Positions 25,615-42,759 of a stretch of DNA of 55,433 bases are shown in pieces. The notes below the pieces were generated by a model. The model made no database searches, had not been told where the DNA came from, and worked only from the letters and a program-made list of their open reading frames with translations. The translations under genes were made by a program, and so were the position numbers. The stretch spans positions 1 through 55,433 of IMG/VR virus record IMGVR_UViG_3300043449_001455. One strand, 5' to 3'. This stretch comes from a virus. Positions within the stretch are counted from its first letter, which is position 1, and the number at the start of each line of letters is the position of its first letter.

Positions 25615-26802
25615 TCACTTTGAGACCAGCATTGCCCAGCCGGAGCCTGGGCCTTCGACCTCCCAGCGCCGCAACCAGTTCTTCCGGCTGTAGACCACAC
25701 CGGCGCCCTTGCTGTTGACGTAGTCGCCATTGACCAGGTCGCACTCGCCGTAGGGGTCGTTGTGGATGATGCTGGTGGTGTTGAACCCGATCGCCACGCT
25801 CCAGTGCCCGCCGCCGCTGGGGGCCGCTGCTGGGCCCTTGTGCAGCCAGCCCACACCAACGGGCCGGCCGGCGCGCAGCTCGCGCTCCAGCATTGCAACG
25901 GTGCAGCTCTGGATGAACTGCGGCTTCAAGCCCAGTGCCTGCAGAGTCTTGATCTGCGCCGTGGGCTCGGTGGTGTCGCCGTACTGGGCGCGGATGGCGT
26001 TGTATTCGTCGTCTGATTTCACCTTGCCGTGGAAGGCCGCGATCATGGCCATGCTCGAACTGAAGCACTCGCGATAGCCTTGGCCCGACTTGTTGTCGCG
26101 CTGGCTGAAGTAGGGGACGGCCAGCTGGATCGCATCGAACGTCTCAAGGCCGGGCATTTCGGGCATGTCCTTGAGCCAGAGATCACCTTCAGCCTTGCGC
26201 CGCCGCTTCAGGCCGGCCTCCACCGATGAACCCGGATTGCGGTAGAGCATCATGGCGCCGGGTACGTCCTTCCAGCGCTTCTCGCGCAGCGCCTTGCTGA
26301 TGGTGGCAAAGCCCTCGGTGCCATAGAAGCCGGAGCCGAGGTTGTACGCGAAGCTGATCAGCGCCGACTTCTGGTTATCGCCGAGCTCCTTCCAGGCCGG
26401 GATGGTCTGTGCGAGTTTCTGACAGATGCGGTCCATCTCAAGCCGCAACAGCATGTCGGCTTCGATGGCGTTGATCTTGTCGCCCTGCTTCACCGGCCGG
26501 CCATCGCCGTAGCGGGTGGTGCCGTAGCCGATCGTGGCGACCTTCCAGCCATGCAGTGGGTCTGCGTATGCCTCAAGGTGGCAGCCCTCGAACTCCTTGA
26601 TCAGCGCCAGCCCGGCCGACAGATCAGCTTGCTTGCCGTCCTGGCTCCAAGTGTTGAACCACGGCCGATCACGCCGCATGGCGTCCTCGTAGCCGTTCTC
26701 GCGCAGATCGGCCTCCAGCTCGGCGATGGCGGCCAGCTGGTGGGGCAGGCCGCGGTAGAAGCGGAACAGCTGCTCAAGGGTGATCGGTGCGGTGTTGCTC
26801 AA
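25615..26802 (-). CDS. Two-domain endolysin: GH24 lysozyme plus C39-like peptidase
   Basis: 395 residues from a TTG at 26802; TGGAGG lies 6-11 nt before it and the TTGA overlaps the upstream stop. After a 60-residue helical lead, LIKEFEGCHLEAYADPLHGW and IGYGTT (E72, D81, T95) form a T4-type muramidase. Residues about 226-390 form a cysteine peptidase of C39 type: C245 (YRECFSSSMAM), H332 (GGHWSVAIGF), N/D347-348 (IIHNDPYG). Two cutting activities on peptidoglycan, glycan and peptide, are predicted. No signal peptide, so it needs a holin. Confidence 0.88.
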   Translation of the reverse strand: MSNTAPITLEQLFRFYRGLPHQLAAIAELEADLRENGYEDAMRRDRPWFNTWSQDGKQADLSAGLALIKEFEGCHLEAYADPLHGWKVATIGYGTTRYGDGRPVKQGDKINAIEADMLLRLEMDRICQKLAQTIPAWKELGDNQKSALISFAYNLGSGFYGTEGFATISKALREKRWKDVPGAMMLYRNPGSSVEAGLKRRRKAEGDLWLKDMPEMPGLETFDAIQLAVPYFSQRDNKSGQGYRECFSSSMAMIAAFHGKVKSDDEYNAIRAQYGDTTEPTAQIKTLQALGLKPQFIQSCTVAMLERELRAGRPVGVGWLHKGPAAAPSGGGHWSVAIGFNTTSIIHNDPYGECDLVNGDYVNSKGAGVVYSRKNWLRRWEVEGPGSGWAMLVSK

Positions 26803-27118
26803 TCTCGCCTCCAGGGGGCTTTGATTTCCATGGCGCCACCAAGCAGCCGGCTGTCGCCGGTCTGCAGGTCAGGGTCGATCGGGTGATGCTCGATCACCGG
26901 AGCGGGAGTGCTTGGTGGCTGAGTGGCGTGCCAGTCCTCAATGGCGCGATCGAGCCGCGGCCCGATCGTCAGCGTTTTGGGAAAGCGAGCCGCAGGAACT
27001 GCAGGACCAGCTGGATGATGCTGTTGGCGCGCAGAGGGCTGAGTGCAATTGCCTCAGACAGCGCAGCGATGGCGATCGCGACGATTGCAGCGGTAGTGGG
27101 GTCCATGCCTAAGCCCAT
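26799..27118 (-). CDS. Predicted -1 frameshift product of the small membrane gene
   Basis: The end of the 49-codon frame is TTC CCA AAA CGC TGA, containing C-CCA-AAA (26981-26975), a canonical X-XXY-YYZ heptamer. Six nt later a 9-bp stem CGATCGGGC/GCTCGATCG follows (26968-26960 with 26955-26947, loop CGCG). After -1 slippage, 58 more codons read TLTIGPRLDRAIEDWHATQP... and end at the TGA that overlaps the endolysin start. That frame has no start of its own near its 5' end. The product would be 106 residues: membrane anchor plus Pro-rich soluble tail. Confidence 0.6.
26969..27118 (-). CDS. Small membrane protein, holin candidate (zero-frame product)
   Basis: 49 residues, MGLGMDPTTAAIVAIAIAAL..., one hydrophobic segment (about 10-26) and a basic end (LRLAFPKR). 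Very similar small proteins occur near lysis genes of cyanophages as far as I recall. It sits directly upstream of the endolysin. Its last codons hold a slippery heptamer, and a -1 shift would extend it (next entry). Confidence 0.65.
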   Translation of the reverse strand: MGLGMDPTTAAIVAIAIAALSEAIALSPLRANSIIQLVLQFLRLAFPKR

Positions 27119-27134: not shown

Positions 27135-27404
27135 TTAGCCCTGCTTGCTGATCACAGCCGCGGTGGGTCGAAGATTTAGCTGAAAGTGCTGTCCGACGAA
27201 CGAAGCGATGGGCGGCAAAACAAGGCTGGCGATCACTGCGGCCAGCACCACCTGACCCATGCGGGTTTCCAGTGTGCCGATGCGTTTGAAAATGTCCTTC
27301 TTGTCGTCGTCGTCCTTTTCGGTACGAAGGATCAGGGCAGACATCATGCCCTTGAGCTCACCGAGCTCTCGGTAGATGTCATTGTGCGACACCTGCGGCT
27401 CCAT
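27135..27404 (-). CDS. Coiled-coil membrane protein, lysis-module candidate
   Basis: 89 residues. A charged helix (ELGELKGMMSALILRTEKDD, then KDIFKRIGTLETRMG) leads into one membrane segment (VVLAAVIASLVLPPIASFVG, about 52-71) and a short tail. This build resembles XhlA-type haemolysin/holin partners. Position beside the other small membrane protein and the endolysin supports a lysis role. Confidence 0.6.
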   Translation of the reverse strand: MEPQVSHNDIYRELGELKGMMSALILRTEKDDDDKKDIFKRIGTLETRMGQVVLAAVIASLVLPPIASFVGQHFQLNLRPTAAVISKQG

Positions 27405-27574: not shown

Positions 27575-27711
27575 TACCGACCTTGCCCTCTGAGGGGCTT
27601 CTTGCCGCGGCGCCGCGGGCGACTGCGCTGGCCGAACCCTTGGCTGGTGGTCTTGGGCGGACCGGGATTGTGCTCGACGCGAGCGGTGCCGGTCTTGCTG
27701 CGAACTGCCAT
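27574..27711 (-). CDS. Tiny basic cyanophage-type protein
   Basis: 45 residues (MAVRSKTGTARVEHNPGPPK, ending KKPLRGQGR), extremely basic and Gly/Pro-rich. I recall near-identical short proteins with 'HNPGPPKKT...RGQGR' in cyanophage genomes, of unknown role. TGATG and TAATG overlaps join it to both neighbours. Confidence 0.7.
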   Translation of the reverse strand: MAVRSKTGTARVEHNPGPPKTTSQGFGQRSRPRRRGKKPLRGQGR

Positions 27712-28160
27712 CAGGGTTCCTCAGGCCAGGTGACCTGCCAGGGGAAACCAGACTGGCTGGTGACATCACGCAGCAGCTGGCGGTAGGCGGCCCAGTCGGC
27801 CGTGTCTACGGGTGCATCGGGGAGCTGCGTCCAGTCACAATCGGCAAGGCGCTGGTTGCGCTCTTGACGCACGCTGGCGGCCTGGGCGTCGGTGCGTTCA
27901 GCGATCTCGGCCGGCGTGGCATCGGTGACGACCCAGACCTGCTCGTAGCCCGAGCGGGTCTTCGCAGGAGCGCCTTCGCTCAGGTTCTGGGTGTGGTCGA
28001 TCACCGGCTGGATCGTCGGCAGCACCACGGCATAGCCGAGATCGGGCAGACAGGCTTCAAAACCAGCCACATCCGAGGGAAAACTGGTGTCAGAGAAAGC
28101 GGCGCGGACATCTGCTGCGGAGAGCGGATAGGCGCCGGTGGTGGTGTTCAGGTAGCTCAT
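27711..28160 (-). CDS. Tail fibre assembly / chaperone-like protein
   Basis: 149 residues. The C-terminal EIAERTDAQAASVRQERNQR, then LADCDWTQLPDAP and WAAYRQLLRDVTSQ is the common phage tail-assembly chaperone end (R..RN..L..CDWTQLpDap.....W..YRqaLRD). It follows the fibre genes. It probably assists fibre folding. Confidence 0.75.
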   Translation of the reverse strand: MSYLNTTTGAYPLSAADVRAAFSDTSFPSDVAGFEACLPDLGYAVVLPTIQPVIDHTQNLSEGAPAKTRSGYEQVWVVTDATPAEIAERTDAQAASVRQERNQRLADCDWTQLPDAPVDTADWAAYRQLLRDVTSQSGFPWQVTWPEEP

Positions 28161-42105: not shown

Positions 42106-42759
42106 CTGACTTGTTCAGCTCCTGGAGGGCGGTCGATTCCATGACCTGGATTCCCTCAAGCATGGCCTTCGGGTCCTCTACCGAGTATAGGTCGCACAGC
42201 TTGAAGAGCACCTCGTACTTCAAGCCTGTGTAGCCACCCATCACAACGCTCCACTGGGTCTGCATCCGCAGAAACATCATGACAATGTCCCAGTTTTCGT
42301 CCCAGACCTCAAAATGCTCTTCCTCTGCCTCCTCGGAGACTGCAGATGGAGCAAGGCCGAAGAGACGAGCGTCTTCCTCGGCCTTGTCAGTGCTGGGGGA
42401 GCCGCCCGTGGCCCAGTACCGAGCGGCTTCCTTCAGTTTTTTGCTTTGGCCCCTTCCAGCGTCTCAAGGTACGCTTTCACAATCCCCTTGGCGAAATAGG
42501 GATCGTCGAGCATGTCCTTGAGCGCTGCTTTGGTGAAGGGGATCTCCTTCCCTGCTTCGTCCTTGACGCCTTCCCAGTCCTGCAGGACTGCGTGAACCAG
42601 GTCGGCGTCACCCTTGTCGACCAGCTTGCTGAACTCGTCACGCCCAAGGCGCTTGAAAGTTGCGTCAAACGACTCACTTTCAAACGAGCCACCGTCGACG
42701 GGAAATTCAACGGTGACGGGCCACTTGAACGTGGACGATTTCTTGCGGACGAAAGCCAT
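42098..42759 (-). CDS. Tail assembly chaperone G-T by -1 programmed frameshift
   Basis: The heptamer A-AAA-AAC (42442-42436) lies in zero frame directly before the G stop. A stem AGCCGC/GCGGCT (42428-42423 with 42405-42400) follows within 10 nt. Slippage gives 112 further residues (LKEAARYWATGGSP..., ending ALQELNKSDG), for a 220-residue G-T fusion, as in lambda and most siphoviruses. The T part contains WDIVMMFLRMQTQWSVVMGG, a typical T signature. Confidence 0.9.
42433..42759 (-). CDS. Tail assembly chaperone G
   Basis: 108 residues (MAFVRKKSSTFKWPVTVEFP, then LQDWEGVKDEAGKEIPFTKA, LDDPYFAKGIVKAYLETLEG). This is the standard gpG-type chaperone build. It lies between tail tube and tape measure. 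The frame ends GCA AAA AAC TGA, which includes a slippery heptamer. Confidence 0.88.
   Translation of the reverse strand: MAFVRKKSSTFKWPVTVEFPVDGGSFESESFDATFKRLGRDEFSKLVDKGDADLVHAVLQDWEGVKDEAGKEIPFTKAALKDMLDDPYFAKGIVKAYLETLEGAKAKN

Follow-up and report, generated by a model that had tools for sequence, protein, structure and literature searches.

Comparison of a small membrane gene next to a phage endolysin gene with its cyanophage relatives points to programmed −1 frameshifting, which would yield a major short form and a minor, tailed form of the same membrane protein. On the sequence evidence given below, we put the probability of this reading at roughly 0.9. That two products arise by frameshift in a gene of a lysis cassette is, in our estimate, likely. 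A first-pass annotation of this DNA had proposed one gene with a short and a −1-extended product, and the proposal appears sound: the slippery heptamer is kept at a fixed spacing, and the −1 frame behind it is under selection.

One gene with two reading frames

The window is the whole stretch of 55,433 nt analyzed here (IMG/VR record IMGVR_UViG_3300043449_001455, positions 1 to 55,433); the gene lies on its minus strand. A 49-codon zero-frame ORF (27118–26969) encodes the short form, MGLGMDPTTAAIVAIAIAALSEAIALSPLRANSIIQLVLQFLRLAFPKR*, and its 3′ end reads TTC CCA AAA CGC TGA. Within this end, C CCA AAA (26975–26981) is an exact X XXY YYZ slippery heptamer one codon 5′ of the zero-frame stop (TGA, 26969–26971), which follows it by 3 nt, a spacing kept in relatives. 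The −1 frame (26799–26975) is open for 58 codons before a TGA and would be joined to the short form after a slip; its translation, the tail, is TLTIGPRLDRAIEDWHATQPPSTPAPVIEHHPIDPDLQTGDSRLLGGAMEIKAPWRRD*.

The tail TGA (26801–26799) overlaps the TTG start of the endolysin gene (26802–26800, also minus strand), and the first ATG, GTG or TTG in the −1 frame is a GTG at 26897, inside the tail and past a conserved WHATQP motif. Rechecked on the sequence, the positions that the first-pass annotation had given for the ORF, heptamer, −1 frame and stem all hold, as do its observations that the −1 frame has no usable start near its beginning and that its stop overlaps the endolysin start.

The heptamer is conserved and its codons are constrained

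A search of IMG/VR with the fusion protein assembled in silico returned 60 loci, and a profile built from diverse fusions returned at least 439 confirmed stretches, 80 of which were taken into the analysis. We placed both halves of the protein by tblastn and then measured the frame between them at each locus. In all 136 loci with both halves the tail frame is −1 relative to the short form, a relation that stays constant although the length of the linker varies between clades; the loci are related by descent, and such counts are not independent trials. The first-pass annotation had singled out the heptamer, and homologues nearly always keep an exact one at the same place, the canonical types being interchangeable: AAAAAAG, CCCAAAG, GGGAAAG or CCCAAAA occurs at 106 of 109 distinct sites, with 3 nt between heptamer and stop in 105 of them and none in one. 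As background, 2 of 1029 long open frames from these loci have a shift-prone heptamer 3 nt before the stop, so the heptamer of the window exceeds chance at this place. Across the wider family, 158 of the 163 loci having a tail carry an exact canonical heptamer.

Codon choice at the site is equally restricted. Relatives with AAAAAAG have Gly, Ala, Arg, Thr, Gln, Ser or Pro ahead of the Lys pair, always spelled with a codon ending in A. Those with CCCAAAR spell Phe-Pro as TTC CCA without exception; elsewhere in the same ORFs, TTT accounts for 61 of 132 Phe codons and Pro is often written with other codons. A tree of 151 fusions, which has few columns and includes the residues encoded at the heptamer, shows at least eight switches of heptamer type among AAAAAAG, CCCAAAG, CCCAAAA and GGGAAAG. 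Repeated changes of type together with fixed codon choice argue for selection on the slippery property rather than on one amino-acid sequence. In Escherichia coli, C_CCA_AAG, G_GGA_AAG and A_AAA_AAG are shift-prone (PMC5009743). CCCAAAA, the type in the window, is less common and might be less slippery than CCCAAAG.

The cultured members S-CBS1, S-CBS3, KBS-S-2A and S-EIVl infect Synechococcus, and the frameshift arrangement is common to these isolates and the T7-like S-B28. The records of S-CBS1, S-CBS3 and S-EIVl (within the set L061–L064, with KBS-S-2A) treat the tail as a gene in its own right that begins at an internal start; the KBS-S-2A record leaves it unannotated. A scan of genome contigs for hosts matched two, one from a Synechococcaceae MAG and one from a Hyphomonadaceae MAG; the relative in the Hyphomonadaceae-binned contig (L148) is of the AAAAAAG class and could be a misbinned cyanophage or reflect a wider host range. 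One candidate relative from a faecal phage contig (H10) was rejected as a chance match.

The tail is selected as protein in the −1 frame

The median pairwise dN/dS of the tail is 0.30 in the −1 frame and 1.16 and 1.69 in the other two frames of the same aligned DNA (Nei-Gojobori; pairs are not independent). This pattern indicates that the tail DNA is under purifying selection in the −1 frame only, and it agrees with the expectation, set out when the site was first noticed, that the downstream frame be conserved as protein. Together with the frame agreement at all 136 loci, it rules out a sequencing error or a pseudogene.

Two other routes to the tail were considered. Translational coupling would make it a separate protein, ribosomes stopping at the end of the short form and restarting in the −1 frame with no frameshift. 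GTG overlaps the stop in S-CBS2, where the heptamer is missing, and L100 has GTGA beside a broken heptamer; GenBank records give the tail its own gene in S-CBS1 and S-CBS3; and, scanning from 60 nt before the stop, we found some ATG, GTG or TTG ahead of the WH motif in 58 of 99 relatives. Yet the other 41 have no such codon there, the window has none before the GTG at 26897, and the positions of the remainder scatter, so that an internal start was rejected for the family. Coupling, moreover, would not require an exact heptamer at fixed spacing, and we regard it as improbable. The lysis gene of phage MS2 likewise lies in an overlapping frame; a frameshift proposed for it in 1982 was later explained by termination-reinitiation (according to references given in PMC5009743). 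Translation of the MS2 lysis protein begins at a codon of its own, whereas the cyanophage gene conserves an exact heptamer and often has no start codon for the tail. The other route is slippage of RNA polymerase on a run of A, giving mixed transcripts in place of ribosomal slippage. The AAAAAAG class, with 6 or 7 consecutive A, would suit it, but CCCAAAG and GGGAAAG hold the same position and function with runs of only three, which are not expected to slip and make transcript slippage unlikely there. We give this route very little credence for the family as a whole.

Natural gains and losses of tail and heptamer

Heptamer and tail are concordant in 232 of 238 distinct loci, with both a heptamer and a −1 tail in 158 and neither in 74. 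The six discordant loci comprise five with a tail and no heptamer and one with a heptamer and no tail. In L049 (3980–4500) the tail is lost and CCCGAAG stands where the heptamer would be; in L016 (3070–3600) the tail is deleted and the heptamer CCCAAAG is still present. In L100 and L126 the heptamer is broken and the tail stays in the −1 frame, with the GTGA already mentioned in L100. In S-CBS2 (L065), S-CRES2 and S-CRES3 the tail is a separate gene without a heptamer, and in S-CBS2 a GTG overlaps the stop of the membrane gene. S-CBS2, L100 and L126 are the three relatives with a −1 tail but no intact heptamer, and they count against the frameshift reading. Homologues with a tail and no heptamer therefore exist, S-CBS2 having a start of its own, and are few (5/238 loci); overall, the case for recoding stands. 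Profile comparison of the two-gene with the one-gene versions matched the membrane parts at E = 7e-16 and the tails at E = 5e-6 (probability 86%).

The membrane part also occurs in T7-like cyanopodoviruses. WH11-B, 7B11-B and S-B28 have AAAAAAG immediately 5′ of TAA and a −1 tail whose end resembles SISLTSPW, and S-CBP1, S-CBP3, S-CBP4, P60 and S-SRP01, in which the membrane part is present, have neither heptamer nor tail.

A stem-loop is found in the near clade only

In the window, a 9-bp stem-loop (26947–26968, minus strand) begins 6 nt past the heptamer and is a candidate stimulator. Its strands, CGATCGGGC and GCTCGATCG (26968–26960 with 26955–26947), form eight Watson-Crick pairs and one G-U pair. 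The folding of this stretch compared with shuffled sequences gave z = −0.83, so the stem alone is not beyond chance. Across 13 near relatives, 73.5% of the stem pairs are kept and two-sided changes occur at 2 of the 9 pairs; the stem is broken in L096, L103 and L121, and RNAalifold run on the near-relative alignment did not predict it as a consensus fold. The part of the first-pass annotation concerning the stem is thus borne out for its existence and, through the two covarying pairs, for the nearest clade, and does not carry over to the wider family, for which we rejected the stem as a stimulator.

Sequence around and after the stop (50 nt, 106 sites) folds modestly better than stretches drawn at random from these loci (mean z −0.85 vs −0.30, p = 7e-5). 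A Shine-Dalgarno-like sequence upstream was found at 20 of 107 sites against a background of 15.5%, no clear excess. Alignment, RNAalifold, and the folding and Shine-Dalgarno comparisons pointed to no stimulatory RNA element common to the family; beside the heptamer, we saw one other constant feature, the adjacent stop codon.

Properties of the short form and the tail

The short form has one predicted membrane helix, an amphipathic helix and a basic C terminus, and its structure model contains two helices (pLDDT 73). It has no match in Pfam or NCBIfam, and its matches in PHROG, including PHROG 22542 (E = 3e-9), are to families of unknown function, none named holin. In every member examined, the charge is −1 to −2 before the membrane segment and +3 to +4 after it. 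This pattern suggests that the short form lies N-out/C-in, which would place the tail in the cytoplasm.

The tail is modeled as helix-strand-helix-strand (pLDDT 84, pTM 0.41). A fold search with this model matched no solved structure in the PDB and, in a viral library, matched only cyanophage proteins, including the S-PM2 protein 'T4-like GC 852'. Free-standing homologues of the tail occur in P-RSM6, P-HM2, S-B64, S-PM2 and others in varied gene contexts, and in T4-like cyanophages they adjoin no membrane gene. Five of the free-standing loci are L321, L322, L325 and L326 (P-RSM6, P-HM2, S-B64 and DSL-LC03) and L323 (S-CBP2); neighbors of such homologues include UvsY, nrdB and a tail-tip lysozyme. 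The DSL-LC03 protein has its own basic N terminus and a hydrophobic segment, and its charges would suggest the opposite topology.

Gene neighborhood and a probable role in lysis

Downstream of the gene, the endolysin (25615–26802, minus strand) consists of an N-terminal domain, a phage lysozyme domain (PF00959) and a C39/C70-like peptidase part. Endolysins of relatives keep the N-terminal domain and have their catalytic parts swapped or lost. Upstream lies a cassette partner of 89 aa (27135–27404, minus strand), with a charged N-terminal half and one hydrophobic segment; it has no name in Pfam or NCBIfam, and we take its layout to be like that of XhlA-type lysis proteins. Most loci have a relative of this 89-aa protein just upstream of the gene and the endolysin just downstream. 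Between tail-fibre-like genes and the lysis cassette, a 149-aa protein (27711–28160, minus strand) matches PF16778 (Phage_tail_APC, E = 5e-22).

The gene had been described at the outset as a small membrane gene beside the endolysin, and its hydrophobic segment, its charge pattern and the adjoining endolysin in most loci confirm that description. In S-B28 and P60 the gene precedes that of the terminase small subunit, a position we take to be the place of the T7 holin gene 17.5. Both positions, next to the endolysin and in the place resembling that of gene 17.5, make a role in lysis likely, and from this neighborhood we judge that the products of the gene probably act in lysis. The short form resembles holins in being a small membrane protein of a lysis cassette, and no match to a known holin family was found. 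It is best described as holin-like, and might fill the role of holin in these phages.

A model for two products and its alternatives

We propose that most ribosomes would reach the TGA and release a 49-aa single-pass membrane protein, a holin-type or holin-helper protein of the lysis cassette, and that a minority, slipping on C CCA AAA with one codon left before the stop, would go on to append the 58-aa tail. Judging from the charges, the same anchor would carry the tail on the cytoplasmic side of the membrane as a small domain. The minor long form might then join the same membrane assembly and modulate it, the number of tails per anchor being set by slip efficiency. Since other cyanophages encode the two parts as separate neighboring genes, the tail is best viewed as a companion of the membrane protein, which the frameshift would link to it in a fixed proportion. 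A holin/antiholin pair is plausible, as the first observation had suggested. Restraint or timing of the short form by the long one is a tentative suggestion, and more doubtful again is a cyanophage-wide lysis control in which slip efficiency at the conserved heptamer decides how much short holin is made relative to a tailed, antiholin-like form, the pairing being reached either by frameshift or by two genes. If this were true, lysis timing could respond to translation conditions through slip efficiency.

The part played by the tail could be a different one. A possibility that we take seriously, at somewhat less than even odds, is that the short form is the lysis protein and the tail a passenger with another job, to which the fusion gives an anchor and a low dose without any antiholin effect. 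The free-standing homologues in varied contexts (P-RSM6, P-HM2, S-B64, S-PM2 and others) fit this, those in T4-like cyanophages indicating that the tail may serve partners or functions other than lysis, and 74 relatives manage without a tail; against it, where the tail is separate, in S-CBS2 and S-CRES2/3, its gene directly follows the membrane gene, a hint that the two proteins have a task in common. We think it most improbable that the tail acts like a spanin, as a periplasmic domain disrupting the outer membrane. No Rz/Rz1 pair was recognized in the cassette, the tail is proline-rich, one form (DSL-LC03) has charges that suggest an orientation other than cytoplasmic, and there is a very weak PHROG match to 'Rz-like spanin' (E = 0.35). 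However, for all frameshift members examined, the charges would place the tail in the cytoplasm, and no lipobox is seen in the tail. We also considered that the tail docks the endolysin through the endolysin N-terminal domain, because the tail gene usually directly precedes an endolysin with that domain. This co-occurrence breaks both ways: endolysins of tail-less relatives of the S-CBP3 type often start with a similar YKGLPHQ motif, the N-terminal domain persists in L016 despite loss of the tail, and the T7-like S-B28 keeps the tail with the terminase small subunit as its next gene. We therefore rejected a pairing of the two, and think docking a poor prospect.

Relation to known systems

Dual-start holin/antiholin genes such as lambda S105/S107 offer one parallel to the proposed modulation by the long form: a single small membrane gene by the endolysin gives two products with a common membrane part. 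In the cyanophage gene, it is the C termini that would differ, owing to a frameshift instead of a second start codon. T7 gene 17.5, in which we know of no frameshift, is similarly small with one hydrophobic segment and similarly placed before the terminase small subunit (as in S-B28 and P60), and is the only known T7 holin (PMC8365609). The S-CBS2 gp049/gp048 pair and the pairs of S-CRES2/3 consist of a homologous membrane protein and tail, adjacent and in the same order; they differ in being two genes with their own starts, with no heptamer and no fusion. The same protein pair thus occurs as two genes or as one gene with a frameshift, which makes a direct comparison possible.

Tail chaperones are, to our knowledge, the main example of −1 frameshifting that is widely conserved among tailed phages. 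The present gene, unrelated to them, would add a second conserved example, this one in the lysis region of phages whose hosts are abundant photosynthetic bacteria. We found no earlier report of a conserved frameshift in a phage lysis-region gene in the open-access literature searched. The frameshift reading would also correct the gene calls of S-CBS1, S-CBS3, KBS-S-2A, S-EIVl and S-B28, where the tail is unannotated or has a doubtful start.

Mechanistically, the slip would be of the classic tandem type known from the tail chaperone; this phage appears to use the chaperone slip as well. The −1 frameshift of the tail assembly chaperones G/GT of tailed phages (Xu, Hendrix and Duda 2004, as summarized in PMC3483164) resembles the one proposed here in its canonical X XXY YYZ site near the zero-frame stop, its −1 direction, its short and extended products with a common N terminus and its wide conservation. 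The lysis-region product, unlike the soluble G/GT chaperone encoded before the tape measure, is an unrelated membrane protein, and its tail can be a separate gene elsewhere. The gene is not itself a G/GT gene, since it lies in the lysis region and not just upstream of the tape measure. That position is held in the window by an ORF at 42433–42759 (minus strand), likely chaperone G, which ends in GCA AAA AAC TGA with an AAAAAAC site. After this ORF the −1 frame runs on, long and protein-like, and serves as a positive control for frameshifting in this phage.
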